Positions 7,239 to 21,820 of a DNA stretch of 64,000 bases are shown here, in pieces. Origin of the DNA: Mesorhizobium sp. B4-1-4 (lineage in GTDB: Bacteria; Pseudomonadota; Alphaproteobacteria; Rhizobiales; Rhizobiaceae); assembly GCF_006439395.2 (NCBI RefSeq), contig NZ_CP083950.1:2604001-2668000 (forward strand), written 5' to 3'. The notes below the pieces were generated by a model that saw nothing but the letters and a program-made list of their open reading frames with translations, was not told the DNA's origin and made no database searches. Position 1 is the first letter of the stretch. The number at the start of each line of letters is the position of its first letter. A program made the position numbers and the translations under genes.

Positions 7239-8746
7239 GCGCGCTGGTCCTCACCGGAGCCCGCATCGGCACAGGCGATGTCGCCGCGGTCGCCCGTGAA
7301 GCGCGCAAGGTGGAAATCGGACCCGATGTCATCGGCAGGTTGGAAGAGGCGCGAAAAGTGCTCGATCATGCCGCCGCCTCTGGCCAGCATATCTATGGCC
7401 TGAACACCGGACTTGGCGCCAATCTCGGCACGACGGTCGAAGGCGACGCCAGCGCTTTCCAGCGCCAATTGCTGGAAGGGCGCAGCGGAGCGGTCGGCGA
7501 AACGCTGCCGACCGAGACTGTCCGCGCCACCATGGTCGCGCGCGCATCGATGCTTTCGGCCGGTGGCTCCGGCCTTTCGCCTGCCGTGTTCGTCGCTTTG
7601 GTCGACGCCCTCAATGCCGGTGTCCATCCGGTGATGCCGTCGCTCGGTTCCATCGGCGCCGGCGACCTCGTGCTGATGACCGCGCTCGCCCGCCTGCTGA
7701 TCGGTGAAGGCGAGGCCGATTATCAGGGACGACGAATGCCGGCGGCAAAGGCGCTGATGATGGCCCGCCTTGCCCCGATCCGCCTAGCGCCCAAGGACGG
7801 GCTGTCGCTCGTCAACGCCTCGGCGGTCTCCGCCGGCAGCGGCGCGCTCGTGGTGACGGATACGCTGTCGGCCCTTGTCCAGCAGCAGCAGGCCGGCGCG
7901 CTGACCATGGAAGGCATCGGCGCCAACCGCACCATCCTTGATCCGCGCCTGCACATGGCACGCCCGGCGGCCGGCCAGCAGGAAGCCGCCAAGGCGCTGC
8001 ATGATCTTCTCGCCCGCGACGAGGCACCGGCGCCGACAACCCTGCAGGACCCGCTCTCGATCCGCTGCATGCCATCGATCCACGGTGCGCTGATCGACGC
8101 AATCGCCCAGGCAAAGCGGGCCGTCGAGATCGAGCTCAATGCCGCGGCCGACAACCCGCTGGTGCTCGGCGACGACGGCGTGGTGATGTCGACAGGCAAT
8201 TTCCACACGGCTGCCCTGTCGCTCGCCTTCGAGACGCTCAGTCTGGCGATCGCGCAATGCGCCGCGGCGAGTGCGGCCCGCTTCATCCAGCTCACCGGTT
8301 CCGGTCGTAACGGCCTGCCAAAATATCTCTCCCCGGTCGGCGGCGCGTCGGCTGGTTTCGTGCCGCTGCAAAAGACGGTGACCTCGATCCTGGCCGCCAT
8401 CCGCCACAAGGCCAATCCGGTGATGCTCGATTTCCTGCCCATCTCGGAAGGCGTCGAGGACCACGCGACCCAGTCGCCGCTCGCCGTTGCGAAATGCGCC
8501 GGGATGATCATGCTGTGGCGGCGGTTGATCGCCTTCGAACTGATGGCCGCCGCCCAGGCCGTCGACCTGCGTGAAGGGCTGGTGCTGGCACCACGTATAT
8601 CGGCCGTCCACGCGGGGATCCGTGCGCTCGTCCCGGTGCTGAAGGAGGACAGGCCGCTCGGCATCGACGCCGAAGCGCTCCATGCCGCGCTTGCCAGCGG
8701 GAATTGGACCTTACATCAGGCTGACCTTGTCCAGGAACAGGCGTAG
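7235..8746 (+). CDS. HAL/PAL-family aromatic amino acid lyase homologue lacking the MIO triad
   Basis: A 503-residue protein of the histidine/phenylalanine ammonia-lyase family. The N-terminal YGLNTGLG (residues 54-61) matches the catalytic tyrosine loop, and later blocks (QDPLSIRCMPSIHG, NPLVLGDDG, SGRNGLPKYLSP) fit the fold. The cofactor-forming Ala-Ser-Gly is missing: the site reads GSIGAGDL (residues 138-145) where active lyases have GSVGASGDL, one residue shorter. Without the MIO electrophile, classical ammonia elimination is unlikely. The ATG was chosen for its overlap with the upstream stop; the longer frame is out of register with the cyclodeaminase. It ends by overlapping a convergent gene by 36 bp. 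Confidence 0.85.
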   Translation: MSALVLTGARIGTGDVAAVAREARKVEIGPDVIGRLEEARKVLDHAAASGQHIYGLNTGLGANLGTTVEGDASAFQRQLLEGRSGAVGETLPTETVRATMVARASMLSAGGSGLSPAVFVALVDALNAGVHPVMPSLGSIGAGDLVLMTALARLLIGEGEADYQGRRMPAAKALMMARLAPIRLAPKDGLSLVNASAVSAGSGALVVTDTLSALVQQQQAGALTMEGIGANRTILDPRLHMARPAAGQQEAAKALHDLLARDEAPAPTTLQDPLSIRCMPSIHGALIDAIAQAKRAVEIELNAAADNPLVLGDDGVVMSTGNFHTAALSLAFETLSLAIAQCAAASAARFIQLTGSGRNGLPKYLSPVGGASAGFVPLQKTVTSILAAIRHKANPVMLDFLPISEGVEDHATQSPLAVAKCAGMIMLWRRLIAFELMAAAQAVDLREGLVLAPRISAVHAGIRALVPVLKEDRPLGIDAEALHAALASGNWTLHQADLVQEQA

Positions 8747-9511
8747 CTCGGCCGGATCCATGTGCACGATGTGCCTGTCCTCGGGATAGGCGCCGCTGTT
8801 GACGTCGGCGACATATTCGGAGAATGCGGCGACCCGCTCCGCTTGCAGCCGGTCACACTCGGCGGCGAAGTTGCGATAGACTTTGGAATGGCGGGGCATG
8901 TGACCACGGTTCTGGCCAAGAATATCCTCGGCGAACAGATATTGCGCGTCGCAGCCCGTGCCCGCCCCCATCGACAGCATGATGAGCGGAGTACGCTCCG
9001 AGATCGCCTTCGCCACCTCGACCGGCACCACTTCGATCTCGGCGCCGATGGCGCCGGCCGCCTCCAGTTGCTTCACCGCCTCGAAAACCTGCATGGCGGC
9101 GTCGGCGGTCTTGCCGACGGCCTTGAAGCCACCGGTCCAGGTCGCGCGCGATGGAATGAGGCCGACATGGCCGATAACGGGGATAGCATCGTCGGCCATC
9201 CGCTTGATGGTGGCGTAGCCGGCGCTGCAATAGACCGCGTCGGCGCCGGCCTTGTAGAGGCGGAAGGCCCAGCGGACGAAATCATCCGCCGTGCCGATCT
9301 CGAAGAAATTCTCGCCCGGCATGGTGAACAGGCTGGGGGCTGCATCGCGGTATTGCGGGTTGAGCACCAGTTCGGGCGGCACCGAGACGATGTCGACCCC
9401 TGCCCGTTCGGCGGCCTCGGCCTCGTCCAGGGTCAGAACACGCAGCATGGTCAGTTGGCGCTTACCCTTCATCGCGCGCAGATCGGCGACGGTCGGTCTC
9501 TTTCGGCTCAT
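8711..9511 (-). CDS. PanB-superfamily (ketopantoate hydroxymethyltransferase-like) protein
   Basis: A 266-residue TIM-barrel protein that resembles PanB in GHVGLIPSRATWTGGFKAVGKT and in EVVPVEVAKAI with the following GAGTGCDAQYL. The PanB magnesium ligands known from E. coli (Asp45, Asp84, Glu114 in GDS, ADLPF and IEGG) are not visible: the matching stretches read VSVPPEL and YCSAG. It is therefore probably not a pantothenate enzyme but a lyase or aldolase with another substrate. The start at MSRKRPT was chosen because AAGGA lies 10 bases upstream; an ATG six codons earlier is weaker. It is the last gene of the catabolic run. Confidence 0.75.
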   Translation of the reverse strand: MSRKRPTVADLRAMKGKRQLTMLRVLTLDEAEAAERAGVDIVSVPPELVLNPQYRDAAPSLFTMPGENFFEIGTADDFVRWAFRLYKAGADAVYCSAGYATIKRMADDAIPVIGHVGLIPSRATWTGGFKAVGKTADAAMQVFEAVKQLEAAGAIGAEIEVVPVEVAKAISERTPLIMLSMGAGTGCDAQYLFAEDILGQNRGHMPRHSKVYRNFAAECDRLQAERVAAFSEYVADVNSGAYPEDRHIVHMDPAELRLFLDKVSLM

Positions 9512-9555
9512 CGAACTTTGTTCCTTCATTGTGTTGGGGATGCCATGTCGGCCGA

Positions 9556-9870
9556 TCAGTCGATCTCGATCATCACCTTACCGGCCTCGACCTTGACCGG
9601 ATAGGTCTTGAGATTGACGCAGACCGGCGCGCCCTTGGCCTGGCCGGTCTTGTAGTTGAAACGGCCATTGTGTTTCGGGCATTCGATGATGTCGTCCATC
9701 ACCAGCCCGTCGGCCAGATGCGCCTTCTCATGCGTGCAATAGCCGTCGGTGGCGAAGAACTCGTCATCCGGCGAACGGTAGACCGCGAAGGTGCGGCCGC
9801 CATGATCGAAGCGAATGACATCCTCTTCCTCGACGTCGTCCACCGCGCACGCTTCAACCCAATTGGCCAT
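9556..9870 (-). CDS. Rieske-type [2Fe-2S] ferredoxin, MocE-like
   Basis: A 104-residue soluble Rieske protein. The cluster ligands are Cys45-x-His47 (CTHEKAHLADG) and Cys64-x2-His67 (CPKHNGRF), the exact two-loop pattern. Its size fits stand-alone Rieske ferredoxins that deliver electrons to oxygenases, such as MocE of the rhizopine pathway. It lies 28 bp downstream of a membrane diiron hydroxylase gene, so it is the likely electron donor for that enzyme. No ferredoxin reductase (MocF) is encoded beside it; one must come from elsewhere. Confidence 0.88.
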   Translation of the reverse strand: MANWVEACAVDDVEEEDVIRFDHGGRTFAVYRSPDDEFFATDGYCTHEKAHLADGLVMDDIIECPKHNGRFNYKTGQAKGAPVCVNLKTYPVKVEAGKVMIEID

Positions 9871-9898
9871 CTCGGGCTCCTCACGACATTGGCGATCG

Positions 9899-10978
9899 CT
9901 ACTCGGCCGCCGCCGACATATCGGCCCCATGGAACTCGCCGCGATAGGGTCTGGCCGTCGGCGGCAGTTCACGCTTGAGGTAATAGTCCTCGTATCTCAG
10001 CTGCCTGAGCAGCACCGGCCAGACCTCGCGATAGGCATGCCACATCGACGGGTTCGGCTCCGGCAAATCGTGCTTGATCAGTTCGTGCAGCCTTGGCAGC
10101 GCGTGATAGGGCACCATCGGGAACATGTGGTGTTCGACATGGTAGTTCATGTTCCAGTAGATGAACCGGCTGATCGGGTTCATGTAGACGGTGCGGGTGT
10201 TGAGCCGGTGATCGACGACATTGTCGGCAAGGCCGATATGCTGCAGCAGGCCGGTCGTCACCATATGCCAGGTGCCGTAGAGGCGCGGCACACCGATCAG
10301 CACCAGCGGCACCCATGATCTAAGCCCGATCGCGAGAGCGATCGTCGCGACATAGATGGCGACATGCCAGCGGGCCGCGACCACGGCCTTGGGCTGTTCC
10401 ATCTCCGGGATGTAGCTCTTCTCGTCGTCAGACAGCGTGCCGAAAGCCTGGCGCACAAGCGTCGGCAGCGAATAGCGGAAGTCGAGAATGCCGGTGAAGG
10501 CCAGCGCCGCCTTCAACAGGTCCGGCGGACGCATGACGGCAATCTCGGCATCGCGGCCGACGATGATGGTGTCGGTGTGGTGGCGGGCATGGCTCCAGCG
10601 CCATTGCACGGGATTGCGCATCAGCATGAAGGAGGCGATGTGGTAAACCACGTCGTTCATCCAGCGCGTGCGGAACGCCGTGCCGTGGCCGCATTCATGC
10701 CAGCGCGAGTCGCTGGACGAGCCGTAGAGCACGCCGTAGACGAACAGGAACGGCACCACCCACCCCGAGCCCCAGAACCAGACGATCCCGGCGGCCGAGC
10801 CCAGGATCGCCGCGAGCCAGATCGCCGTGTCGCGGATCGCCGGGCCGTCGCAGCGCCGCATCAACTCCTTCATCGCCTTGCGCGGCACGTCGGTGTGATA
10901 CCACTCGGCCGAGGCCAGGCCGGTCTCGATCGCGATCCGTGTGCTTTCGCCGACCAGGCTGTAGTCGCGCTTCGCCAT
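9899..10978 (-). CDS. Membrane diiron hydroxylase/fatty acid desaturase family, MocD-like
   Basis: A 359-residue integral-membrane oxygenase with the three histidine boxes of the desaturase/hydroxylase family: HECGH (94-98), HARHH (130-134) and HVEHH (280-284), plus an extra histidine at QHIG (247). Four or so membrane segments are visible. The family uses O2 and electrons from a ferredoxin. In rhizopine degraders the homologue MocD acts with MocE in demethylating 3-O-methyl-scyllo-inosamine; a lipid substrate is equally possible. Gene order next to the Rieske ferredoxin favours a small-molecule hydroxylase. Confidence 0.85.
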   Translation of the reverse strand: MAKRDYSLVGESTRIAIETGLASAEWYHTDVPRKAMKELMRRCDGPAIRDTAIWLAAILGSAAGIVWFWGSGWVVPFLFVYGVLYGSSSDSRWHECGHGTAFRTRWMNDVVYHIASFMLMRNPVQWRWSHARHHTDTIIVGRDAEIAVMRPPDLLKAALAFTGILDFRYSLPTLVRQAFGTLSDDEKSYIPEMEQPKAVVAARWHVAIYVATIALAIGLRSWVPLVLIGVPRLYGTWHMVTTGLLQHIGLADNVVDHRLNTRTVYMNPISRFIYWNMNYHVEHHMFPMVPYHALPRLHELIKHDLPEPNPSMWHAYREVWPVLLRQLRYEDYYLKRELPPTARPYRGEFHGADMSAAAE

Positions 10979-10996
10979 CGTCTTCTCCCGCTGGCC

Positions 10997-11911
10997 TCAA
11001 AGGCCGTTGGCGCGGAATTTCCCGTCCAGAAATGTCTTGGCGCGCGGCACGTCGTCCTCGGTCAGATGCTCGATGATGACAGGGATGTTCGGGTGCTTCT
11101 CGCTGAGCCGTCTGAGATAGAGATCGTAGTTGAGCGAGCCGAGACCAGGAGCGGGCAGTTCGATCTCGCCGACGCCACGGAATGTCAGCCCCTCATGGGC
11201 GTTCTCGTCGCCGATGTCCGCATGCTTTTCCGACTTGTCGCCGCCCGAGCGCTTGACGTCCTTGGCGTGCGCGATCCTGATCTTTTCGGCCAGCGTGTCG
11301 AACACCTGGTTCAGCACCTGGTCCATGCGATCGATGTTGTGGGCCTCGAAATAATTGGTCGGGTCCATCAACAGGCCGAGCCCGGGGTGATCGACCTGCG
11401 CGAACATTTTCACCGTCTCCTCGACCGAGCCGACGACATTGTTGACATAGGTTTCGAGCAGGAACACCGCGCCGTGGTCATAGGCCGTCCGGGCAAGGTC
11501 GGAGATCACCTTGCGGCATTCCTCGAAACCCTCTTCGGTCTTGTTCCTGGGATGATGCACCCAGTCGGATTCGGTGTTGTAGGTGCCGGTTTCGGAGATC
11601 ACATAGGGCGAGCCGAAATCGCGCGCGTTGCGGATGATCTCCTTGAGATAGCCGACGCGCCTTTCGCGCTCGGCTTTGTCGGGATGGATGATGTTGGTGT
11701 AGCCTGAAATGCAGCAGACCGGCAGATTGTGGTCGCGGAATGTATCGCGGACCTTTTTTGCCTTATCCCTGGTGATCTGTCCCGCCGACAGGTCGATATC
11801 CCTGAAATGCAGGTCGAGCTGCACGGTGTTGAAACCGAGCCCGCGGATGCGCCTGGCGGCCTCATCCAGCTCGTAAGGAAAATAGCCTGTAAAGATACCT
11901 GCCTGCATCAT
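10997..11911 (-). CDS. Sugar phosphate isomerase/epimerase-like TIM-barrel protein (MocC/IolE-like)
   Basis: A 304-residue AP-endonuclease-2-like TIM barrel. Metal-binding positions of the family are seen at ETGTYN near residue 123, ETYVNN near 167, MDPTNYFE near 194, HAKDVKR near 226 and a final VIIEHLTEDD. Relatives isomerise, epimerise or dehydrate sugars and inositols; MocC and IolE belong to this superfamily. It is placed between a MocA-like dehydrogenase and a MocD-like hydroxylase. A GGGAGGA site precedes the start, 9-10 bases before MMQAGIF. Confidence 0.82.
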   Translation of the reverse strand: MMQAGIFTGYFPYELDEAARRIRGLGFNTVQLDLHFRDIDLSAGQITRDKAKKVRDTFRDHNLPVCCISGYTNIIHPDKAERERRVGYLKEIIRNARDFGSPYVISETGTYNTESDWVHHPRNKTEEGFEECRKVISDLARTAYDHGAVFLLETYVNNVVGSVEETVKMFAQVDHPGLGLLMDPTNYFEAHNIDRMDQVLNQVFDTLAEKIRIAHAKDVKRSGGDKSEKHADIGDENAHEGLTFRGVGEIELPAPGLGSLNYDLYLRRLSEKHPNIPVIIEHLTEDDVPRAKTFLDGKFRANGL

Positions 11912-11968: not shown

Positions 11969-13057
11969 TCAGTCGGTCGAGATTTCGGAGAGCCTGACGG
12001 TGCGGCCTTTTGCCATCGAGCGATAGCCGGCTTCGACCAGCGCCATGGTCTTGACGTTGTCGGCGACCGACAGCGCCGGCGGCGTGCCGGTCTTTACGGC
12101 ATATTGAAGCTGCTCCATCACGCCGATGAAGGCGTGCGGGAACCACATCGTGTCCCAGCTCGGACTGACCCATTCTCCGCCGGTCGTCTCGGTCGAGGCA
12201 TAGGTCAAGGTCGATGCCACGCCTGTCGGCCAGCCGATCGTGCCCTTGGCGACACCCTTGGTGCCGTCGACGCGCCAGTTGATGTGCTGATCGTCTCGAT
12301 AGCCCTGCTGACGGGGCCCGGACCACACATCCTCCAGCGACACAGCGAGCACGCCGGAAGGGAACCGCAAGGTCGACACCGTGATGCCATCGGAATGCTC
12401 GAACGTCGTGCGCGGATCCTTGCGCGTTAACGTGGTGATCTCCAGGGGATCACCGAACAGGAAGCGCAGCACGTCGAGATGATGCACGCTCATATTGGCA
12501 AGTGTGAGCCGGTCGTAATCGGCGAGGAAGGCTTGCCAGTGCGGGATCGCGTGCATGTCGATCTGCGCGAAGACGATGTCGCCGAGCGCGCCACTGTGGA
12601 TGATCTGCTTCAGCACGCGCATCGACTGGTCGTAGCGCATGTTCTGGTTGACCGAGAGGATCTTGCCTGAAATCGCCGCCTCGTCGCGCAGCTTGACGGC
12701 TTCCTCGACTGACAGCGCCAACGGCTTCTGCGCCAGGATCGCCTTGATGTGCTTCTGCTTGAGCGCGTGGCGGATCAACGCCGGCTGCTGGTCGGGAGGA
12801 AAGGCAAGGTCGACGATCTCGACATTGTTGTCTTCGATCAGCTGCTCCGGCGTGTCATGCACGGTCGGGATGTCCCAGCGTGTGGCGACCTTCTCGGCGC
12901 TGGCCTTCGTCCGCGACGCGATCGCCACCACTGGAAATTCGGCCTGGGCGTAAGCGCCCAGGTGGCACTCGGCCATGATCATACCGGCGCCGACGCAGCC
13001 GATCCGGTATTCCCTGGCGCGCACCTTGACGTCCGGCTCGAAACCCATGCTCGCCAT
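11969..13057 (-). CDS. Gfo/Idh/MocA-family oxidoreductase
   Basis: A 362-residue NAD(P)-dependent dehydrogenase. The Rossmann motif is RIGCVGAGMIMAECHL, and the family catalytic motif AQKPLALSVEEA (usual EKP, here QKP) comes near residue 110. MRYDQSMR and the histidine in ANMSVHHLDVLRF follow as expected. Enzymes of this type oxidise inositols, sugars or amino sugars. The start MASMGFEPD was chosen because GGGAGGA lies 6-7 bases upstream; the longer frame has no ribosome site. A 57-bp gap separates it from the epimerase gene. Confidence 0.87.
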   Translation of the reverse strand: MASMGFEPDVKVRAREYRIGCVGAGMIMAECHLGAYAQAEFPVVAIASRTKASAEKVATRWDIPTVHDTPEQLIEDNNVEIVDLAFPPDQQPALIRHALKQKHIKAILAQKPLALSVEEAVKLRDEAAISGKILSVNQNMRYDQSMRVLKQIIHSGALGDIVFAQIDMHAIPHWQAFLADYDRLTLANMSVHHLDVLRFLFGDPLEITTLTRKDPRTTFEHSDGITVSTLRFPSGVLAVSLEDVWSGPRQQGYRDDQHINWRVDGTKGVAKGTIGWPTGVASTLTYASTETTGGEWVSPSWDTMWFPHAFIGVMEQLQYAVKTGTPPALSVADNVKTMALVEAGYRSMAKGRTVRLSEISTD

Positions 13058-13217
13058 CCAATCCTCCCCGAGAAACTGGATATAACGCCATGGCCCCGGC
13101 ATCGGCCAAGGCCTGCACCATCATTTCCCATCAGCACAATGGAGGTGAGAGCCGCGAAGGTTCAAATGCAAAAAGGACGGCTCAGTTGGGCGCGGCGTCG
13201 AAGAGTGATGTTCTATC

Positions 13218-13667
13218 TTATTGAACCTCAGCGACCGCGGCATCGACAAAGCTGACGACCGCCCCGCCATCCTCGCCAGCACCGATCGCAATGCGCCCGC
13301 CGGAGGCGATGCCCGCAATGTCGCAAACCACGAGCGGCATACTGATCCCGTAAAGAAACTCGGCGACGATGGCGCCGACGGCGAGGATCGGGTCCGGCCT
13401 CTCCAGAAGGATACCTGCGGGCGCCGTGCCCCGGCGGATCGCCTCGGCCAGGACAGAGGACGAGGAAGACGACCCACGCCCGCTCGGCATGACGAGGATC
13501 TTGCCGGCGACGTTCTGGCCGAGGCCGGGGTGCGAATGATCTGTTATGTCGCCGGTTTCGGCATCTATGCCACCCCAGAAGCTGAGCGGCTGCGAAAACA
13601 CCAAGCTGTGTCCCTCTGCTGCGCCGATCAGTTGGAAGCTGCCTGCTCGTTCGATCAGCTTGCTCAT
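13218..13667 (-). CDS. Aconitase X small (swivel) subunit, DUF126
   Basis: A 149-residue swivelling-domain protein. It shows SFWGGIDAETGDITDHSHPGLGQ near residue 30, then VMPSGRGSSSSSSVLAEAIRRG, which is the conserved phosphate/substrate loop of DUF126. It forms a heterodimer with the large aconitase X subunit. Its ATG overlaps the large-subunit stop (ATGA), so both are made in a fixed ratio. Characterised bacterial two-subunit aconitase X enzymes dehydrate cis-3-hydroxy-L-proline to pyrroline-2-carboxylate; that specificity is a family-based guess here. Confidence 0.85.
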   Translation of the reverse strand: MSKLIERAGSFQLIGAAEGHSLVFSQPLSFWGGIDAETGDITDHSHPGLGQNVAGKILVMPSGRGSSSSSSVLAEAIRRGTAPAGILLERPDPILAVGAIVAEFLYGISMPLVVCDIAGIASGGRIAIGAGEDGGAVVSFVDAAVAEVQ

Positions 13668-14940: not shown

Positions 14941-15130
14941 TATGGCGGGACAGCGCCCCCCTCTGCCCTACCGGACATCTCCCCCACGAGGGGGGAGATT
15001 GGCAGCTTCGGCCTTATTGCACTTTTTGCAACGTGGAATTCCGCGAAACCGGCGATAACAGCCGATCTCCCCCCTCGTGGGGGAGATGTCCGGCAGGACA
15101 GAGGGGGGCGCGAAGGAACGCCAGCGGCCC
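14941..15130. repeat. Paired palindromic intergenic repeat (type A, two inverted arms)
   Basis: Two arms of about 60 bp face each other. Left arm: GGGACAGCGCCCCCCTCTGC followed by CCGGACATCTCCCCCACGAGGGGGGAGATT. Right arm: the inverse, GATCTCCCCCCTCGTGGGGGAGATGTCCGGCAGGACAGAGGGGGGCGC. Each arm has its own hairpin around CTCCCCC...GGGGGAG. It fills the gap between the transporter ATPase and aconitase X genes. Related copies occur at 28188-28405, 38510-38590, 53868-54527 and 55890-56105. Confidence 0.85.
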
Positions 15131-15146: not shown

Positions 15147-16214
15147 CTAATCCCCCGCGATCAGCACCGTGCTCTCCGGCGACCAGCGCAGCACCACGTC
15201 CTGCCCTTCCGCCAGCCGGTCCACGCCGGTGTTCTGCACGATGACCTTCAGCGTCTGGCCGGCACGCTCGACGAAATAGGTGCTGTTGTTGCCGGCAAAG
15301 ATGCGCTTCGACACCTGTCCCCTGAGCATATTGGCATTGGCGGCATCCATGGCCTCGGCATCGGTGTCGATGCGGATGCGCTCGGGCCGCACCGCACAAC
15401 TTGCCTTGGCGCCGGCTGGCAACCGGTTACCCGCGCCGGCCGCGATGGCCGTACCGTCCGGCAGGCGGATACCGTTGCCGGTCGCGTCGCCGCGAAAGAT
15501 GTTGGCGTCGCCGAGGAAGGTGGCGGCGAATTCGCTCTTTGGCCGGTCGTAGATTTCCTCCGGCGGTCCTTCCTGCACCAGCCGGCCGTCGCGCAGAATG
15601 CCGATGCGGTCGCTCATCGTCAGCGCTTCTTCCTGGTCGTGGGTGACGAAGATGGTGGTGATGCCGATCTCGCGCTGGATGCGCTTCAACTCGATCTGCA
15701 TGTCGACGCGCAGCGCCTTGTCGAGCGCGCCGAGCGGCTCGTCGAGCAAAAGCACGCGCGGCTTGGTGACGATCGCGCGCGCCAGCGCCACGCGCTGGCG
15801 CTGGCCGCCGGAGAGCTGGTGCGGGCGCCGGGCGCCAAGCTTGCCGAGTTGCACGAGGTCGAGCGCGCGCTGCACTTCCGTGGCGATCACAGCCTTCGCC
15901 GCGCCGCGCACCGACAGGCCGAAGGCGATATTGTCGGCGACACTCATATTGGGAAACAGCGCATAATTCTGGAACACCATGCCGATGCGCCGCTTTTCCA
16001 CCGGCACCCGCTCGACGCTCTCACCGCCGATGGAAATACGGCCCGAGTCGGGAAAGTCGAAACCGGCGATCTGGCGCAGCAGCGTGGTCTTGCCGCTGCC
16101 GGACGGGCCAAGCAGGGCATAGAAGCCGCCATCGGCGAAATCGATGGAGACATCGTCCAGCGCCTTGTGCGCGCCAAAGCTGCGCGAGACGTTCGATACC
16201 TGCACGCCGGCCAT
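15147..16214 (-). CDS. ABC transporter ATPase, PotA (polyamine/Fe3+) type
   Basis: A 355-residue ATPase with Walker A GPSGSGKTT near residue 37, Q-loop MVFQNYALFPNM, signature LSGGQRQRVALARA, Walker B VLLLDEPLGALD and H-loop FVTHDQEEA. The C-terminal TOBE domain (from about 240, with SCAVRPERIRI) is typical of spermidine/putrescine and related importers. The start MAGVQVSN overlaps the TAA of the upstream permease by one base; the much longer frame through the permease is a shadow. It energises the two downstream-named permeases encoded upstream in the operon. Confidence 0.92.
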   Translation of the reverse strand: MAGVQVSNVSRSFGAHKALDDVSIDFADGGFYALLGPSGSGKTTLLRQIAGFDFPDSGRISIGGESVERVPVEKRRIGMVFQNYALFPNMSVADNIAFGLSVRGAAKAVIATEVQRALDLVQLGKLGARRPHQLSGGQRQRVALARAIVTKPRVLLLDEPLGALDKALRVDMQIELKRIQREIGITTIFVTHDQEEALTMSDRIGILRDGRLVQEGPPEEIYDRPKSEFAATFLGDANIFRGDATGNGIRLPDGTAIAAGAGNRLPAGAKASCAVRPERIRIDTDAEAMDAANANMLRGQVSKRIFAGNNSTYFVERAGQTLKVIVQNTGVDRLAEGQDVVLRWSPESTVLIAGD

Positions 16215-17002
16215 TATTTCTCTCCGCCGAATTTGAAGAAGCGCGCCGTAAGCAGCATCAGCGCCATCGACACGACGATGATGATCGTCGAGACCGCATT
16301 GATCTCGGGCGTGAAACCCTTGCGGATCGCGGCATAGATTTCGACCGGCAGCGTCGTCTGTCCGGGCGTCGACAGGAAGTAGGAGACGACGAACTGGTCG
16401 AACGAAACGGCGAACGCGAACAGCCCGCCGGCGATGACGCCCGGCATGATCCAGGGCAGCGTGACGCGCATCGTCACCTGCCACTGATTGGCGCCAAGCG
16501 AGCGCGCCGCCTCTTCCAGCTCCGGCGCGAAGGTCTGCAGCCGGGCCGAGACGACGACGATGACATAGGGCAGCGCCAGCGCGACATGGCCGAGCAGGAT
16601 GGCGAACAGGCCGCGCCCGATGCCGACGCCGAAGAAGAAGATCAGCATCGCCGTGCCGGTGATCAGCCACGGAATGGCGATCGGTGGAAACAGCAGCGCC
16701 TGCAGCAATTTCTTGCCGCGAAACTCGTAACGAAAGAGCGCCAGCGACGCGGCCGTGCCAAGAACCACACAGATGACTGTCGTGATGACGGCGATCTCGA
16801 TGCTGTTCCAGGTCGCCGCGATCAGTTGGTCGTTCTGCCAGAGCGAGGCGTACCACTCGGTCGTCCACTCGAACGGCAGCTGATAGAAGGGCGAGACGTT
16901 GAACGACATCAACGCCATGATGATGATGGGCAGATAGAGGAAGGCCAGCAGCAGCAAGATATAGAGCCGGCCGAGCCATTCGAGGATACGTGTCGTCGCC
17001 AT
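16214..17002 (-). CDS. ABC transporter permease, PotC type
   Basis: A 262-residue inner-membrane permease with six membrane segments. The N-terminal hydrophobic segment YILLLLAFLYLPIIIMALMSFN is typical for PotC-class proteins, and the EAA motif reads LEEAARSLGANQWQVTMRVTLP around residue 165. It pairs with the adjacent PotB-type permease. Its start overlaps the stop of that gene (ATGA) and its stop overlaps the ATPase start by one base. Confidence 0.9.
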   Translation of the reverse strand: MATTRILEWLGRLYILLLLAFLYLPIIIMALMSFNVSPFYQLPFEWTTEWYASLWQNDQLIAATWNSIEIAVITTVICVVLGTAASLALFRYEFRGKKLLQALLFPPIAIPWLITGTAMLIFFFGVGIGRGLFAILLGHVALALPYVIVVVSARLQTFAPELEEAARSLGANQWQVTMRVTLPWIMPGVIAGGLFAFAVSFDQFVVSYFLSTPGQTTLPVEIYAAIRKGFTPEINAVSTIIIVVSMALMLLTARFFKFGGEK

Positions 17003-17871
17003 CACGTCGCCCTCCGCAGCACCGGCGACGCGATCGCCAGGATGACCAGCACGACGGCCAGCAGGATGAAGGACAGCGCCGCCCCAAGCGGCCAGTTGAA
17101 CACGGCGACGAACTGGTCCTCGATGATGGTGCCGTAGAAAGTGCCAGTGCGTCCGCCGAGGATGCGCGGCTCCATGAAGGAGCCGACGACCGGCACGAAG
17201 ATGAGCGCGGCGCCCGCCACAAGACCGGGCATCGACAGCGGGATGATCACCCGCTTCAGCACCTGAAGACGCGAGGCGCCGAGCGAGCGCCCGGCCTCGA
17301 TCAGCGAGTCGTCGATGGCTTGCAGCGTGAGATAACAGGTCAGCACCATATAGGGCACATAGGAGTGCACCAGTCCGATGATGACCGCCGGATAGGAATA
17401 CATGAGGTCGATGTTGATCTTGAACGGCAGCACGGCATTGAGCGCAGTGTCGAGGATGCCGCCCTCGCGCAAAACCATCGCCCAGGAGAAGATGCGCACC
17501 AGCCCGTTCGACCAGAACGGCAGGATGACAAGCAGGAAGATCGCCTCGCGGCTTCTGCCCTTCAGTACCTTGGCCAGCACGTAGGCCGCCGGATAGCCGA
17601 TGACGATGCACCACAGCGTCACTTCAAGGCCGAGGCGCAGCGAGGCCAGGAGCAATGTCAGATAAAGGCTCTGCGAGAAGAATGCGGCATAGTTGCCAAG
17701 CGTGAAGGCCCATGGCTTTCCCGACAAAGGCAAGTCGGTCATGAAGGAGAAAAAGACCATGGCGGAAAGAGGCAGGAAGATCGCCACCGTCAGCCAGAGA
17801 TAGGCCGGCGCCAGCAATGGCAGCGCCGATCTCAGCCCGCCGCGTGACGCAACTGCCCCCTGCACTGCCAT
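17002..17871 (-). CDS. ABC transporter permease, PotB type
   Basis: A 289-residue permease with six predicted membrane segments. Family marks are FFSFM in the first periplasmic boundary, SNGLVRIFSWAMVLREGG around residue 120, and the EAA loop LIEAGRSLGASRLQVLKRVIIPLSMPG near 195. It forms the channel with the PotC-type partner. It is separated by 67 bp from the binding-protein gene upstream. Confidence 0.9.
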   Translation of the reverse strand: MAVQGAVASRGGLRSALPLLAPAYLWLTVAIFLPLSAMVFFSFMTDLPLSGKPWAFTLGNYAAFFSQSLYLTLLLASLRLGLEVTLWCIVIGYPAAYVLAKVLKGRSREAIFLLVILPFWSNGLVRIFSWAMVLREGGILDTALNAVLPFKINIDLMYSYPAVIIGLVHSYVPYMVLTCYLTLQAIDDSLIEAGRSLGASRLQVLKRVIIPLSMPGLVAGAALIFVPVVGSFMEPRILGGRTGTFYGTIIEDQFVAVFNWPLGAALSFILLAVVLVILAIASPVLRRAT

Positions 17872-17938: not shown

Positions 17939-19000
17939 CTACTTCACGTCGACCTTGAGTTGCTGCCAGAGCGCCAGATAGGCTTCGCGCTGGGCGTCGG
18001 TGATCGGCGCCTGGAACTGGATGCGCTTGGCCACCGCCGGATCACCCATCACCTTGCGATTGAAAGCGTCCTCCGGCAGTGCATCCACGGCCTTGGTGTT
18101 GGCGGAGACGGGAGCACCGACCTTGGTGACCCATTCGACGTAGAATTTCGGGTCGATCATGTAGTTGATGAAGGCCTCAGCGCCGGCGACGTTCTTCGAA
18201 CCGACCGGAATGGAAAAGGCGTCGAGCCAGGCGACGGCGCCTTCCTGCGGGATGACCAGCGAGACCGGCAGCTTGAAGTGGGTCTTGGCGCGGTCGGCCG
18301 AGCCGCTCCAGTAGGTGCCGATATCGATCTGGTTAGAGGCGACCATCTGGTTCCAGTCGTTTTCCGAGCTCCAGAAGGTCTTGATCTGCGGCATCAGCGA
18401 GGTGAGCTTGGTCTTGACCGCACCCATATCCTTGATGTCGTTGATGTTCTGGCCGGTGGCGATGGCGCCGAACTGTACCGCCTCGACAGCATCGTCGCGG
18501 ATGATGACGCGGCCCTTGTGCGCCGGATTCCACATCTCGGCGATCGACGTCGGCGGCTTGTCGAAGGATTTTTCGTTGATGGCGAGCGCCGTCAGGCCCC
18601 AGACCCACGGCACGCCATAGACCTTGCCGTCATGGTCGAGCATCGGCGACCCGGCCTTGTCCTTGCTGATGTCGGCATAGTTCGGCAGCTTCGAGGTATC
18701 GATCGGCTGGATCAGCTTTTCCGCCATCGCCTGGTCGTTGAAGGCGGCGTTGATCATGACGACGTCGTAGAGACCCGGATTGGTGCGGATCTTGGTCAGC
18801 ATTTCCTGTTCGGAATTGAAGAAGTCGTTGACGACCTTGTTGCCGGTCGCCTTTTCGAACGCCTCGATGGCCCAGGGTTCGTCGGCGCCATAACCCTTCC
18901 AGTTGAGCACATGCACTTCACCAGCGTTGGCGGCGAAGGCGAAGGCGGAGGTGACGACGGCGGTCGCCGTCAGCAAAGCAGTCAAATTGAGCATGCGCAT
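17939..19000 (-). CDS. Periplasmic substrate-binding protein, PotD/polyamine type
   Basis: A 353-residue secreted protein. The signal peptide ends near AFAANAGE, and the mature part starts with VHVLNWKGYGADEPW, the classic PotD-like opening (usually LNWxxY). Later blocks YDVVMIN, GVPWVWGLTALAINE and SADRAKTH fit the fold. It delivers substrate to the PotBC-type channel. GAGAGGAAC stands just upstream of the chosen ATG. The longer frame upstream reads through the kinase gene in another register and is spurious. Confidence 0.9.
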   Translation of the reverse strand: MRMLNLTALLTATAVVTSAFAFAANAGEVHVLNWKGYGADEPWAIEAFEKATGNKVVNDFFNSEQEMLTKIRTNPGLYDVVMINAAFNDQAMAEKLIQPIDTSKLPNYADISKDKAGSPMLDHDGKVYGVPWVWGLTALAINEKSFDKPPTSIAEMWNPAHKGRVIIRDDAVEAVQFGAIATGQNINDIKDMGAVKTKLTSLMPQIKTFWSSENDWNQMVASNQIDIGTYWSGSADRAKTHFKLPVSLVIPQEGAVAWLDAFSIPVGSKNVAGAEAFINYMIDPKFYVEWVTKVGAPVSANTKAVDALPEDAFNRKVMGDPAVAKRIQFQAPITDAQREAYLALWQQLKVDVK

Positions 19001-19040: not shown

Positions 19041-20015
19041 TCAGGCTGTCTGATGGGCCTTCTGTACCTGGCCGGGCGCGCCGGCCACGCCCTCGCCCAG
19101 GAAAGTCTGGATTTCGGCGTTGGTCGGCGCCGACGAACCGCCATGACGGGTGACCGAAATGGCGGCCGCCGCATTGGCGTAGCGCGCCGCCTCGAACGGC
19201 GGAACACCCCTCGACAGCGCGCTGACGAAAGCGCCGATATGGGTGTCGCCGGCGCCATTGGTGTCGACGACCGCGACCTTGAAGCCGGGAATGGTCTGGG
19301 CGGAACCATCCGCCAATCGTACATGGCAGCCCTTGGCGGCGCTGCGAATGATGACGCCGTCGGCTTTCGGGCAATGGTCCGCAAGCAGTCGCTCCGCGAG
19401 TGCCTCGATGTCACCGGGGCCGGCAATCTCGGCGGCCTCCGTCGCGTTGCAGCTTAGCCAAGTCGTACGAGCAAGCACTCGCGACAGGATAGGACACGGA
19501 ATGTGCGAGATGACCGGGGTCGGGTCAAAGACGAAAGGGGTCTGCGCAGGCAGCGCCTCGATCCATTCGGTGAGCGCCTCGCGGCTTCCGGGATAGCTCA
19601 GCGTATAGCCCGAGGTGAACACCCAGTCGCCCGGCGAGACAACCACGGGCGCCATCATGTCGAGGCTAAGAATGCTCTCCGCACCAGGCCAGGACACGAA
19701 GGTGCGTTCGGCATCGCTTGAGATCATCGCGACGCAATTGCCGCTGTCCATGGCAGGCGATGGCGGCGTCAGCGTTTCGATGCCGTCGGCGGCAAAGGCG
19801 GAGCGCAGGAAATCGCCATTCGGCCCGCTGCCGAGCTGGCCGCCAAACGCCACTGTCATGCCGGTCCGGCTGGCCGCGACCATCATGTTGAAGCCGCCGC
19901 CAGCGACCTGGTCATAGCTCGACGCCGTCTTCTCCGTGCCCGGCGCCGGCAAGGCATCGATGCGGTAGACGTAGTCGACCACCGCGCTGCCGATATGGAC
20001 GAGCCGCCCACTCAT
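19041..20015 (-). CDS. PfkB-family carbohydrate kinase
   Basis: A 324-residue ribokinase-type kinase. The N-terminal pattern GGGFNMMVAASRTG near residue 39 is the substrate-side PfkB signature, and DTNGAGDTHIGAF near 250 is the second signature with the catalytic aspartate and anion hole. It phosphorylates a sugar or nucleoside with ATP in the cytoplasm. Its start overlaps the stop of the ADP-ribosylglycohydrolase-like gene (ATGA), which suggests that the sugar it uses is released by that hydrolase; this link is inferred. Confidence 0.88.
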   Translation of the reverse strand: MSGRLVHIGSAVVDYVYRIDALPAPGTEKTASSYDQVAGGGFNMMVAASRTGMTVAFGGQLGSGPNGDFLRSAFAADGIETLTPPSPAMDSGNCVAMISSDAERTFVSWPGAESILSLDMMAPVVVSPGDWVFTSGYTLSYPGSREALTEWIEALPAQTPFVFDPTPVISHIPCPILSRVLARTTWLSCNATEAAEIAGPGDIEALAERLLADHCPKADGVIIRSAAKGCHVRLADGSAQTIPGFKVAVVDTNGAGDTHIGAFVSALSRGVPPFEAARYANAAAAISVTRHGGSSAPTNAEIQTFLGEGVAGAPGQVQKAHQTA

Positions 20016-21052
20016 GCCGCCGCATCCTTGCCGGAGCCGGTTTTCGCGAATCGCGCCGCGACGAGGTCGCCGGCGAGTTCGCGAACTTGCTCGACGTCGA
20101 TGCCAAGGAGGCGCGCGACGTGCTGTCGCGGCAACTTCGAAAGACCAGTGCAGGCGCCCCCCATGCCGGCCGCAATAGCGCCGATCGTGTCGGTGTCGCC
20201 GCCGAGATTGGCGCTGATGACCGCCGCTTGCCAGGGATCGCCGCCGGTGACTTCCAGCACCGCGAAGGCGGCCGGAACGGACTCCTGGCTGGCGACGCCG
20301 GTGCCGACCAGGTCGGTGATCAGCCGGATCGCGTCCCTCGTCGCTTTGCCACGCACCAGATCCTGCGCCCAGACGATACGCGCGGCGATATCGCCGCCGG
20401 TCACCCAGTAGCCGAGCGTCGCTCCTCGCCCCGCCGCCACGACGGCACTGTCGGAGGCGGCGCGCCAGTCACCGCCGGAAACGCCGCAGCTGACAGCGGC
20501 CGCGACGGCAGCGGCCGAGGCAACAGCGATCGAGGTGTTGTGTGTCGCCCGGCAGGTCTCGGCCACCTTGGCGACCAAAGCCTCCAGCGCTTCGACCGGC
20601 ATCATGATGCCGACCGGCGCGATGCGCATGGCTGCACCATTGGTGTCCCCGCCACGCCCCGCGTCCTCGGCTGGCACACCATTGTTGATGGCGTCGATGG
20701 CGCGCTTGGTGGACGGCCCGAGCAGATCGTAGCTGCCGCGCGCCTTGACGTCACGCTCCCAGTCGAGCAGCGCATTGACCCAGCGCGTGTGGTCGAAGCG
20801 GCCGCCCGATTCGATGAGGATGCGGCCAAGCAGCAGCGCCTGTTCGGTATCGTCGGTGATGGTGCCGGCCGCCAGCCCCTTCGACACCGGATGGTCGGCA
20901 ACGGGCGCTACGAAATCCTCGACATGACCGTACAGCTCGGCGATCCGCGCCGGCGACAGAAGCTGGGTCGGCATGCCGAGCGCATCTCCCAGCGCCCCGC
21001 CGATGAGAGCGCCCATGGCGCGGTCGATCATGTCCGTCGCTTTGTCCGACAT
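20012..21052 (-). CDS. ADP-ribosylglycohydrolase (ARH/DraG) family hydrolase
   Basis: A 346-residue all-helical dinuclear-magnesium hydrolase. GALIGGALGDALGMP opens the fold; metal ligands are seen in TDDTE (about 66-70), in GGDTNGAAMR (about 134) and in GGDTDTIGAIAAGM (about 293). The family splits N- or O-glycosidic ADP-ribosyl bonds; members that lie in transport operons probably act on small N-ribosyl compounds rather than on proteins. It is co-transcribed with the PfkB kinase and the GntR regulator, 3 bp after the latter. Confidence 0.88.
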   Translation of the reverse strand: MSDKATDMIDRAMGALIGGALGDALGMPTQLLSPARIAELYGHVEDFVAPVADHPVSKGLAAGTITDDTEQALLLGRILIESGGRFDHTRWVNALLDWERDVKARGSYDLLGPSTKRAIDAINNGVPAEDAGRGGDTNGAAMRIAPVGIMMPVEALEALVAKVAETCRATHNTSIAVASAAAVAAAVSCGVSGGDWRAASDSAVVAAGRGATLGYWVTGGDIAARIVWAQDLVRGKATRDAIRLITDLVGTGVASQESVPAAFAVLEVTGGDPWQAAVISANLGGDTDTIGAIAAGMGGACTGLSKLPRQHVARLLGIDVEQVRELAGDLVAARFAKTGSGKDAAA

Positions 21053-21055
21053 CGC

Positions 21056-21781
21056 TCAGAACCTCATATGCAGCGCGAAATGCGCTGGGTTGAGCAGACT
21101 GGTGACATATTCGATCGGCCGGTCATCAGCGGCACGGGTCAACCGGCGGCCACGCAGGAATGGCGTGCCCTCAGGGCAGCCGAGGATGGCCGCGTCCTCG
21201 GCATTCAGCATCTCGATCCCGATCCACTCCTCGCCATGGTCGGGCACGAGCCCGGCGGCGCGCAGCGTCTGGTGCAGCGATCCCTCGCGCAGGCCGCGCA
21301 GCGGAACGTCTTCGAGTTCCGGCGACAGCGGCAGGCGGCTGCGCTCGATGGAGATCGCATGACCGTCTCTGGCATTGGTGCGTACACGATCGACGGCGAT
21401 GAAGAACGGGCTTTCGATCTCAAGCAGCGCGGCAAGCCCCGCATCTTCGATCACCTCGAGCCGCAGCGTCCTTGTCTCGGCATTGGCGCCGGCATTGGCC
21501 AGCGCCCGCGACCAGCCGATCGCGTCGTCGACCGGCTTGCCGTCGAAAGTGACGAAGGAGCCGATACCGACCTTGGTGGTGATCAGCCCGCGGCTGGACA
21601 GTTCCTCAAGGCCCTTGCGGACCGTGTTGCGGCTGACGGAGAAGCGCTGGACGAGTTCATTCTCGCTTTGCAGGCGATCGCCGAAGCCGAGCACGCCGGA
21701 GCGGATTTCATGCTCCAGAACGGTGGCGATCTGCTCGGGCTTGCCCGTACCGGGAGAGAGCTGAATCGCGCCGCGCTTCAT
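21056..21781 (-). CDS. GntR-family regulator with UTRA sensor domain (HutC subfamily)
   Basis: A 241-residue transcription factor. Residues about 10-75 are the winged helix (LQSENELVQRFSVSRNTVRKGLEELSSRGLI) and the remainder is a UTRA ligand-binding domain ending with EYVTSLLNPAHFALHMRF. It is the first gene of the run of transporter and catabolic genes and should control them in response to a small ligand. I prefer the ATG start MKRGAIQL; a GTG 13 codons upstream would place the start inside the likely operator. Confidence 0.87.
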   Translation of the reverse strand: MKRGAIQLSPGTGKPEQIATVLEHEIRSGVLGFGDRLQSENELVQRFSVSRNTVRKGLEELSSRGLITTKVGIGSFVTFDGKPVDDAIGWSRALANAGANAETRTLRLEVIEDAGLAALLEIESPFFIAVDRVRTNARDGHAISIERSRLPLSPELEDVPLRGLREGSLHQTLRAAGLVPDHGEEWIGIEMLNAEDAAILGCPEGTPFLRGRRLTRAADDRPIEYVTSLLNPAHFALHMRF

Positions 21782-21796
21782 ATGGGCACCTGTCCA

Positions 21797-21820
21797 GTGA
21801 ACCTGTATAATCCTGTTCAC
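21797..21820 (-). promoter_or_regulatory. Candidate GntR operator with upstream -35 box
   Basis: On the minus strand GTGAAC and GTTCAC form an inverted repeat with a 12-base AT-rich spacer (AGGATTATACAG), 16 bases before the chosen gntR start. A perfect TTGACA lies upstream at 21840-21845. No convincing -10 box is spaced from it, so the promoter is only tentative. Autoregulation by the adjacent GntR protein is inferred. Confidence 0.35.

Follow-up and report, generated by a model that had tools for sequence, protein, structure and literature searches.

The fourteen genes at 8711-21820 of the window, the 64,000-nt stretch of the Mesorhizobium sp. B4-1-4 chromosome analysed here, most probably represent three stacked catabolic modules, each assembled independently of the others; a single pathway controlled by a single GntR protein, as a preliminary description had proposed, is unlikely. 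Gene content, gene order, conservation and residues are the data used, and from these we infer substrates, reactions, regulation and transcription.

All fourteen genes lie on the minus strand, and Pfam and NCBIfam searches agree with the domains named in the preliminary description: GntR/UTRA, ADP_ribosyl_GH, PfkB, SBP_bac_8 (PotD-like), two BPD_transp_1 and ABC_tran/TOBE_2 in module 1, and AcnX, AcnX swivel, GFO_IDH_MocA, AP_endonuc_2, FA_desaturase, Rieske and Pantoate_transf in the remainder. The tight packing reported there was also confirmed: with corrected starts (PotD near 19000, PotC near 17002, PotA near 16214, MocA at 13057), 11 of the 13 adjacent pairs overlap or are 3-67 nt apart, and the two wider gaps are PotA-AcnX (232 nt) and AcnX swivel-MocA (160 nt). 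The GntR gene may start at 21781 rather than at the GTG at 21820. Comparison with up to four relatives gave dN/dS values of 0.03-0.23, indicating purifying selection on the genes.

Modularity was assessed in 61 AcnX loci. Module 1 is found upstream of AcnX in 41 of the 50 Mesorhizobium loci with enough flank, and AcnX occurs without it in the other nine. At the 9 loci outside Mesorhizobium, no module 1 or module 3 genes were found near AcnX within the available flank. The gene following AcnX is one other than mocA in 42 of 49 loci. Module 1 stands alone on two plasmids, on a third plasmid without its GntR, and without AcnX or module 3 in two genome stretches (L140 and L144), while module 3, accompanied by a LacI and transporters of its own, is present in stretches that have neither module 1 nor AcnX. 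In a 297-genome order sample, with minimum identities of 49% set for the ADP-ribosylglycohydrolase (ARH) and 79% for MocD, both were found in 3 genomes outside Mesorhizobium, on different contigs in each; by the same criteria, the two are 10.2-26.9 kb apart in 5 Mesorhizobium genomes besides that of the window.

Module 1 and the aconitase X pair

Module 1 (15147-21781) comprises seven genes:

21056..21781, minus strand: GntR/UTRA regulator (Pfam UTRA and GntR; 28% identity to E. coli YegW)
20012..21052, minus strand: ADP-ribosylglycohydrolase-family glycosidase (Pfam PF03747, 203 bits; E. coli YegU, 36%)
19041..20015, minus strand: PfkB sugar kinase, ribokinase-like (Pfam PF00294, 148 bits; top PDB match ribokinase 4x8f; E. 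coli YegV, 34%)
17939..19000, minus strand: PotD-like solute-binding protein (Pfam SBP_bac_8; NCBIfam PotD 159.5 bits, below the cut-off of 582)
17002..17871, minus strand: PotB-like permease (domain match BPD_transp_1)
16214..17002, minus strand: PotC-like permease (domain match BPD_transp_1)
15147..16214, minus strand: PotA-like ATPase (NCBIfam potA subfamily, 365.9 bits, cut-off 355.6)

This set would be a GntR-controlled unit in which a polyamine-type ABC transporter imports a small glycoside, the ARH-family hydrolase cleaves the sugar bond and the ribokinase-like PfkB protein phosphorylates the freed sugar. A GntR-family regulator, an ARH-family hydrolase and a PfkB kinase are likewise grouped in E. 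coli yegTUV/yegW, which however has the MFS-type transporter YegT in place of a PotDBCA-type ABC transporter (no YegT homologue was matched by blastp at E <= 1e-5 in the window query set) and in which yegW and yegV are arranged tail to tail on opposite strands. GgaR (YegW) is described in PMC10819704 as sensing ADP-glucose and repressing yegTUV, genes presented there as having no clear function.

Module 2 (13218-14914) is predicted to encode a heterodimeric, type-IIa-like aconitase X that dehydrates cis-3-hydroxy-L-proline:

13664..14914, minus strand: aconitase X large subunit (Pfam AcnX, 428.8 bits; aligned to AtAcnX 7cnp/7cnq)
13218..13667, minus strand: aconitase X small (swivel) subunit (Pfam AcnX_swivel_put; aligned to AtAcnX domain 4)

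In the alignment, 11 of the 15 AtAcnX residues at the cluster and substrate sites are identical, among them Trp35, Asp203, Ser293, Lys530, Tyr534 and the catalytic Ser70; the changes include Thr72 to Ser, Ile206 to Leu and Cys71 to Ser. The substrate site is thus conserved as in type IIa (C3LHyp dehydratase), though incompletely because of the replacements of Thr72 and Ile206, both of which are conservative. The large and small subunits are separate (390 and 108 bits, respectively, with the NCBIfam model of the fused enzyme, whose cut-off is 700), and Cys510 of AtAcnX is absent, an absence implied for type IIa (PMC8184944). Mevalonate 5-phosphate dehydratase (type IIb), in which Leu27(S), Val64(S), Ala47(L) and Ser50(L) replace Trp35, Thr72, Asp203 and Ile206, was rejected, as the window pair has Trp, Ser, Asp and Leu at these positions.

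The association of modules 1 and 2 at 41 loci fits some functional tie, and AcnX begins 63-100 nt after PotA in 27 of 44 related loci (of which L014 and L036 retain only a scrap of PotA), so that a transcript common to modules 1 and 2 is possible. A division into two units is therefore a possibility to be weighed: the nine genes from GntR to AcnX swivel would form a GntR operon for a single compound, such as a ribosylated molecule resembling hydroxyproline, and the five genes of module 3 would stand separately. We consider this rather unlikely: AcnX is absent from all three plasmid stretches bearing module 1, it persists at the nine loci without module 1, and the pairs outside Mesorhizobium have no module 1 within the available flank. 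Among these nine loci, clear deletion scraps of module 1 lie beside AcnX in three (L014, L031 and L036) and doubtful ones in two (L019 and L065). In the window, the PotA-AcnX gap is occupied by a repeat, and a similar palindrome was found in this gap in 17 of the 44 loci:

14953..15111, strand not assigned: inverted repeat in the PotA-AcnX gap, with arms of 51 nt

The core of the repeat recurs in the window at 28.2, 28.4 and 38.5 kb.

Module 3 and its boundary

Module 3 (8711-13133) consists of five genes and a conserved element in front of them:

13077..13133, minus strand: conserved promoter/operator-like block, TGATGGGAAATGATG ... GGCCTTGGCC ... TATATCC (identified by conservation only)
11969..13057, minus strand: Gfo/Idh/MocA-type dehydrogenase (Pfam PF01408 and PF22725)
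10997..11911, minus strand: xylose-isomerase-like TIM-barrel protein, 'MocC-like' (Pfam PF01261, 98.6 bits; weak PDB matches to D-tagatose 3-epimerase)
9899..10978, minus strand: FA_desaturase-type oxygenase, 'MocD-like' (Pfam PF00487, 121.7 bits)
9556..9870, minus strand: MocE-family Rieske ferredoxin (NCBIfam TIGR02377, 187.2 bits, cut-off 136.15)
8711..9529, minus strand: PanB-like protein lacking the Mg-ligand residues of PanB (Pfam PF02548; alignments; predicted fold)

An oxygenase-initiated sugar or cyclitol pathway is proposed, in which MocD/MocE would hydroxylate or O-demethylate the substrate, MocA would then oxidise and MocC isomerise it, and the 2-keto product would probably be cleaved or rearranged by the PanB-like protein; a sugar or a (methylated) cyclitol is the best guess for the substrate. 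The names MocA and MocC apply at the family level only, the former scoring 89.3 bits where the inositol 2-dehydrogenase model requires 355 and the latter having IolO (20.9 bits) as its sole NCBIfam match at E <= 0.001. A LacI-MocD-MocE-ferredoxin reductase-PanB-like cluster in Rhizobium leguminosarum GLR17 resembles module 3 (MocD 72%, PanB-like 61% identity) and has its own LacI. It differs in having an FAD-dependent oxidoreductase between MocE and the PanB-like gene and in lacking an annotated MocA in the vicinity; on the far side of its LacI is a TIM-barrel gene, and the annotation of the cluster names generic families only.

In relatives, module 3 is accompanied by a divergent regulator of the LacI family and by either one or two ABC transporters for sugars. 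The form in the window is compact and is missing the LacI, both transporters and the DUF4432 gene of relatives, and no close relative of this LacI was found in the window's genome (best match 45%). These losses, together with a damaged gene in 2 of 9 compact loci (mocE in L011, the PanB-like gene in L022), might indicate a decaying remnant without function. We regard this as improbable, since all five genes are open in the window and under purifying selection (dN/dS 0.04-0.14 against compact relatives) and the compact mocA-mocC form, although a single clade, is present in several AcnX lineages.

The promoter-like element was sought in gaps of about 100 to 519 nt and was found in 36 of 36 LacI-SBP gaps, 4 of 5 LacI-MocA gaps, the one other gap and 7 of 8 AcnX-MocA gaps, the eighth being recognised by eye; the background rate was 41 in 4000 random 300-nt windows. 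As the compact form keeps this LacI-side element before mocA, the natural boundary is placed at about 13.1 kb and not, as previously drawn, at about 15 kb, between 15147-21781 and 8711-14914. No terminator-like site was found in the 160-nt AcnX-MocA gap and a sigma-70 scan of it gave no promoter, so readthrough from AcnX into module 3 is possible in this strain.

These observations also bear on the joint pathway of the preliminary description, in which PotDBCA would import a decorated ribosyl or amino compound, ARH would cleave it, PfkB would phosphorylate the sugar, the AcnX, Moc and PanB-like enzymes would process the rest, and GntR would control all genes. Common orientation and small gaps across the set speak for it, as does the adjacency of the whole set in the window and in six other Mesorhizobium loci of compact order that include module 1 (L009, L011, L020, L022, L025, L053). 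It is nevertheless very unlikely, given that the modules are apart in many genomes, that module 3 of relatives has its own LacI and transporters, and that the AcnX residues suit a proline-type substrate and not a sugar. The pieces do lie together in most of the Mesorhizobium loci examined, but other genes separate AcnX and mocA in 23 of the 30 in which both are in view. As far as gene order tells, the two parts are regulated independently in relatives, which the preliminary description had itself named as a ground for refutation, and the retained LacI-side element suggests the same for the window. The chemistry first suggested is reasonable module by module (glycoside cleavage and phosphorylation; oxygenation, sugar-type oxidation and isomerisation), but not as one joint route. 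Neighbouring catabolic modules can evidently pass for one pathway, and the tempting reading as a single island is corrected here.

It is highly improbable that module 3 is a genuine locus for the catabolism of rhizopine (3-O-methyl-scyllo-inosamine). Sinorhizobium meliloti L5-30 mocCABRDEF likewise combines MocA-, MocC-, MocD- and MocE-type proteins in one block, PMC10107442 lists mocA, mocC and mocDEF among the genes used by rhizopine loci, and the oxygenase pair is matched at the family level (FA_desaturase plus a ferredoxin above the MocE-family cut-off). A ribose-type binding protein beside module 3 in one relative (L120) has the rhizopine binding-protein model as its one NCBIfam match at E <= 1e-8, although with 66.9 bits against a cut-off of 420, and MocR exceeds its cut-off somewhere in the genomes of 4 of 7 other Mesorhizobium sampled. 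However, relatives have a LacI-family gene and not MocR beside module 3, and of the 297 genomes sampled, 55 have a MocD relative and 13 a MocR over cut-off. The window's genome, which is outside these 13, gave one match to the MocR model (E 5.5e-115), and none of the 5 best of 68 first-look candidates passed the MocR cut-off (NF052281, 650 bits). None of the 32 MocB candidates, all of which were scored, passed the cut-off of NF052284 (420 bits), the best reaching 275.3 bits. Unlike the S. meliloti block, module 3 has no ferredoxin reductase beside its genes, and its PanB-like protein is not part of the moc set as named in PMC6668481.

The PanB-like protein

The predicted structure of the PanB-like protein (AlphaFold2, pLDDT 83.7) has the TIM-barrel fold of PanB, and its 28 best Foldseek matches are all PanB chains (best E 4e-18). 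Asp45, Asp84 and Glu114, which we take to be the Mg ligands of E. coli PanB, are all replaced, by Pro, Gly and Ser, respectively; the two true PanB proteins of the genome have Asp, Asp and Glu. In all 8 PanB-like proteins compared, Asp84 is changed to Gly, Lys112 to Tyr and Glu114 to Ser, Ala or Gly, whereas His136 and Glu181 of E. coli PanB are retained.

Two further PanB-like gene clusters occur in the window's genome, both of which include a membrane oxygenase and a sugar transporter of the ribose type. Tentatively, module 3 and these paralogues, three clusters in one genome, might constitute an undescribed class of oxygenase-initiated sugar or cyclitol operons. The pathway would be opened by a MocD- or FA_hydroxylase-type membrane oxygenase together with a MocE-type ferredoxin, and a PanB-fold enzyme, its Mg site swapped for a Tyr-Cys/Glu-x-Glu set, would close it with new C-C bond chemistry; the compact Mesorhizobium mocA-mocC form, with LacI and transporters dropped and the operator kept, would have arisen once and spread between lineages by recombination. 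A testable unit is formed by PanB-like proteins that lack the PanB metal site and are repeatedly located next to membrane oxygenases and sugar transporters. Rhizobia encounter O-methylated cyclitols from legumes; if module 3 handles such a compound, a missing step of rhizosphere carbon use would be named, and PanB-like genes now annotated as vitamin-B5 synthesis would receive their correct role. The two ordinary PanB genes lie elsewhere in the genome. Most homologues of the PanB-like protein that were compared begin near the ATG at 9511.

Arrangement of the fourteen genes

In the window (bases 2604001-2668000 of a 6.27 Mb source genome consisting of a single contig), all fourteen genes between positions 8711 and 21820 are present, lie on the minus strand and belong to the families named in the preliminary description. 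They form three modules:

15147-21781, minus strand: module 1, genes for a GntR regulator, an ADP-ribosylglycohydrolase-family glycosidase (ARH), a PfkB kinase and PotD, PotB, PotC and PotA transporter proteins
13218-14914, minus strand: module 2, genes for the large and swivel subunits of aconitase X (AcnX)
8711-13133, minus strand: module 3, genes for MocA and MocC (family-level names only), MocD (FA_desaturase-type oxygenase), MocE (Rieske ferredoxin) and a PanB-like protein

Eleven of the 13 gaps between neighbours are overlaps or measure 3-67 nt; the PotA-AcnX gap measures 232 nt and contains an inverted repeat with 51-nt arms, and the gap between the AcnX swivel subunit and MocA measures 160 nt. 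A sigma-70 scan returned two promoter-like sites, neither preceding mocA (2.5 were expected by shuffling), and a terminator scan gave no useful module boundary. No published account of this gene set was found in the open-licence literature searched.

A palindromic repeat, TCTCCCCC....GGGGGAGAT, occurs at 14953-15111, 28215-28378 and 38535-38557 (10 strand-wise matches versus 0.03 expected). A like palindrome is found in the PotA-AcnX gap of 17 of 44 related loci.

The AcnX large subunit, which is 96% identical to that of Mesorhizobium sp. B2-4-15, was used to scan one genome per species, yielding 61 loci (52 from Mesorhizobium and 9 from others); genes were called by a simple script that missed some of them, e.g., the AcnX swivel subunit in several loci. 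Regarding the order of the gene set in other genomes, the part from module 1 to AcnX is largely kept: of the 50 Mesorhizobium loci with 7.5 kb or more of upstream sequence, 41 have module 1 upstream of AcnX and nine lack it, and in 27 of 44 loci PotA and AcnX are 63-100 nt apart. The part from AcnX to MocA is not. In the 49 loci whose downstream sequence reaches 9 kb or more, the AcnX pair is followed by MocA in seven, by an opposite-strand LacI gene in 21, by an opposite-strand siderophore-interacting-protein gene in 16 and by an AhpC-type gene in five; MocA is in view in 30, with other genes between it and AcnX in 23 of these. The nine AcnX loci from outside Mesorhizobium hold no module 1 or module 3 genes of at least 70% identity within the flank searched, which was shortened in some. 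Scraps of module 1 DNA lie beside AcnX in five of the nine Mesorhizobium loci that lack module 1, clear ones in L014, L031 and L036 (57-559 nt, 88-91% identity) and doubtful ones in L019 and L065 (74-89 nt, 78-82% identity), so module 1 was lost there while AcnX stayed.

Module 1 also occurs on its own. The full series GntR-ARH-PfkB-binding protein-permease-permease-ATPase is carried by plasmids of Mesorhizobium sp. B1-1-8 and Rhizobium sp. TH2, and the same series lacking the GntR gene by a Paracoccus albus plasmid; tblastn found no AcnX or module 3 genes in these three 19-kb plasmid stretches. The sample of 297 genomes from the order spans 122 genera, of which 6 contain ARH relatives (E <= 1e-30) and 27 contain MocD relatives. 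Besides the window's own genome, eight contain both ARH (at least 49% identity) and MocD (at least 79%). The distance between the two genes is 10.2, 18.1, 19.2, 21.1 and 26.9 kb in the five of these that are Mesorhizobium; in all three others the genes lie on separate contigs. Three further genomes of this sample have ARH alone and two the MocD type alone; neither was seen in two sampled Mesorhizobium genomes (G229 and G248). Of the stretches with ARH only, L140 and L144 contain a complete module 1, and L141 has GntR-ARH-PfkB without the Pot genes.

The fourteen genes had previously been read as one catabolic island serving a single pathway under one GntR/UTRA regulator, with two halves meeting near 15 kb. 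The single-pathway reading is not borne out, given the separate occurrence of the modules in related loci. The boundary at 15 kb was likewise abandoned, because AcnX is tied to module 1 by its spacing and module 3 begins at an element of its own at approximately 13.1 kb. Modules 1 and 2 may share one transcript; module 3 is predicted to retain its own control element. The remaining value of the finding lies in module 3 and the PanB-like family.

Module 3, its upstream element and the compact form

Outside Mesorhizobium, four loci (L120-L123) contain a LacI gene and, on the opposite strand, MocA-MocC-binding protein-permease-ATPase-DUF4432-MocD-(MocE)-PanB-like genes. In L124 a different sugar transporter precedes MocA, and the stretch examined excludes the LacI side. 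None of these five stretches yielded matches to AcnX, ARH or the module 1 GntR. Portions of the set are found as well: MocA-MocC with LacI, without MocD, MocE and the PanB-like gene, in Sinorhizobium, Pararhizobium and Pseudosulfitobacter plasmid stretches, and MocD-MocE-reductase-PanB-like with LacI on a Rhizobium leguminosarum plasmid. Within Mesorhizobium, 34 of the 49 loci with 9 kb or more of downstream sequence show LacI and its transporter.

The compact form, in which module 3 has neither LacI nor transporters, directly follows AcnX in the window and in seven other Mesorhizobium loci and is located farther from AcnX in L037. In a DNA alignment with two full forms, the compact form is missing LacI, the first transporter and everything between MocC and MocD; 36 nt of the LacI-transporter intergenic DNA survive just ahead of mocA. 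In the window, this element comprises TGATGGGAAATGATG, a palindrome-like core GGCCTTGGCC and a TATATCC stretch, a composite that occurs once in the whole genome. A search with its first 15 bases (at most two mismatches) found the element in all 36 LacI-transporter gaps, in seven of eight AcnX-MocA gaps, in four of five LacI-MocA gaps (the miss being L155) and in the L037 gap, versus 41 of 4000 random 300-nt windows; the eighth AcnX-MocA gap, that of L014, contains the exact element, which the script had placed inside a gene call. This conservation points to a putative promoter or control site of module 3.

The window's genome contains no close relative of the module 3 LacI (best 45%) or of the binding protein of the LacI-side transporter (best 35%). 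In L125 (5354000-5373000 of the same genome), a GATAGGAAATGATA site with two mismatches to the module 3 element lies between LacI and MocD; module 3 might be a further target of the L125 LacI protein.

The origin of the compact order was traced in FastTree trees of one or two genes each. The nine compact sequences group as a single clade in the MocA-MocC tree (support 1.0). In the AcnX tree, the last common ancestor of the compact loci spans 35 tips, and in the MocD-PanB tree, which has eight compact tips (L022, with low coverage, was omitted) and also unlabelled duplicates of two of them, the compact tips are not one clade. As judged from these topologies, a single origin followed by recombination would be the likeliest history; repeated loss is the less favored explanation. 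That the compact module 3 is a decaying remnant appears improbable: relative to up to four compact relatives, dN/dS is 0.03-0.23 for the fourteen genes and low for the five genes of module 3 (0.04-0.14; 0.07-0.08 for MocA), a comparison that omits the mocE gene of L011, present only as pieces. Slightly in favor of decay, damaged genes were found in two of the nine compact loci, namely this mocE gene in L011 and, in L022, a PanB-like gene split across two frames.

Predicted activities of modules 1 and 2

The ARH-PfkB enzyme pair and its regulator have a parallel in yegTUV/yegW of Escherichia coli (YegU-ARH 36%, YegV-PfkB 34% and YegW-GntR 28% identity). According to the excerpted text of PMC10819704 (2024), YegW (GgaR) represses yegTUV and senses ADP-glucose, and the yegTUV genes lack a clear function. 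A glycine-rich ORF (22685-23404) with GVGA/GGS repeats and no Pfam match lies a short distance upstream of the GntR gene; some relatives carry a similar glycine-rich ORF (cluster c26) ahead of module 1.

The AcnX pair is the sole AcnX of the genome. Residues of the Agrobacterium cis-3-hydroxy-L-proline (C3LHyp) dehydratase, as listed in the available portion of PMC8184944, were mapped on PDB alignments; a +10 offset was applied between the numbering of the chain and that of the paper, and all listed residues agree with it. Eleven of the 15 sites are identical (Trp35, Ser70, Asp203, Asn233, Cys273, Glu292, Ser293, Asn294, Cys508, Lys530 and Tyr534) and four are changed (Cys71 to Ser, Thr72 to Ser, Ile206 to Leu, and Cys510 missing); the archaeal mevalonate-type replacements were looked for in the pair and are absent. 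In the same portion of PMC8184944, type IIa AcnX proteins are described as C3LHyp dehydratases, possibly with only two of the cysteines, and their C3LHyp sites as completely conserved, whereas those of the window pair are not quite so. Because of this difference the pair is termed type-IIa-like, and its activity is a prediction.

Genes for an OCD/mu-crystallin protein and a histidine/aromatic ammonia-lyase (HAL) lie head to tail on the plus strand at 6237-8746, convergent to the fourteen genes, the HAL gene overlapping the 3' end of the PanB-like gene by 36 nt. Other Mesorhizobium loci likewise have the OCD-HAL pair beside module 3; L120-L124 showed no such pair, and in L052 the pair is located near AcnX without module 3, with three genes between. 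The OCD protein was considered as a pyrroline-2-carboxylate reductase partner of AcnX and could not be so named, because its scores fall short of all NCBIfam cut-offs listed (best 184.9 versus 409, archaeal alanine dehydrogenase).

The PanB-like family and the substrate of module 3

The best PDB relatives and the predicted fold of the PanB-like protein are those of PanB. Eight PanB-like proteins were compared, in one alignment, with the genome's two ordinary PanB proteins and that of E. coli. All eight have Asp84 replaced by Gly, Lys112 by Tyr and Glu114 by Ser, Ala or Gly; position 45 is Asp in one of the eight, in a region of uncertain alignment. Positions 45, 84 and 114 are presumably the Mg ligands of PanB. 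His136 and Glu181 are kept, and Tyr100, Cys101, His121, Glu164 and Glu166 (window numbering) are invariant across 20 family members.

Five Pantoate_transf genes are present in the genome, two ordinary and three PanB-like. The other two PanB-like clusters, L174 (222000-241900) and L175 (3058000-3077900), contain an FA_hydroxylase-type membrane oxygenase, TIM-barrel proteins and ribose-type sugar transporters, and one of them also a MocE-type ferredoxin and a Gfo/Idh dehydrogenase. In the class sample, 16 of 337 genomes encode PanB-like proteins. Regarding the 17 stretches around 18 PanB-like places outside the window's genome, six show an oxygenase homologue (L199, L202-L205 and L215), one (L201) shows MocE and no oxygenase, and ten show neither. 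In nine of these ten the proteins reach just 37-43% identity; in the remaining one, L200, identity is 55%, and the contig begins 221 nt upstream of the gene. Among close relatives the tie between PanB-like proteins and oxygenases is clear; across the wider family it is unproven. The 20 proteins that share the invariant residues were mostly found via MocD and are no test of it. In L202 and L203, from 1.4 Mb genomes of the same class, the PanB-like gene directly adjoins a MocD-like gene (36-38% MocD identity).

The second MocD-MocE pair of the genome (70% and 83% identity), in L125, is accompanied by LacI, a ferredoxin-reductase-type protein, a ribose-type sugar transporter and a Gfo/Idh protein above the inositol 2-dehydrogenase cut-off (423.8 versus 355); no PanB-like gene was seen in that stretch. 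Our best guess for the substrate of module 3 is a cyclitol or sugar, because the PanB-like loci hold sugar transporters and this second pair sits with an inositol 2-dehydrogenase. Binding proteins of L175 (one) and L174 (two) are the second to fourth best matches of the genome to the rhizopine binding-protein model, all below cut-off.

In the consulted extracts of PMC10107442 and PMC6668481, the known rhizopine genes, mocCABRDEF, are organized in four transcription units, and rhizopine-inducible expression acts through MocR. Module 3 was rejected as a rhizopine locus: in the window's genome no MocB exceeds its cut-off, nor does any MocR among the five best first-look candidates. MocR exceeds the rhizopine cut-off in four of seven other sampled Mesorhizobium genomes (G069, G105, G209 and G295).

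Elsewhere in the window, a phage remnant of three ORFs was found:

34184-37751: phage remnant
34184-35341: ORF with a terminase-domain end, plus Glyco_hydro_108 and PG_binding_3 matches
35473-36876: DDE transposase ORF
36987-37751: terminase large-subunit ORF (Terminase_6N)
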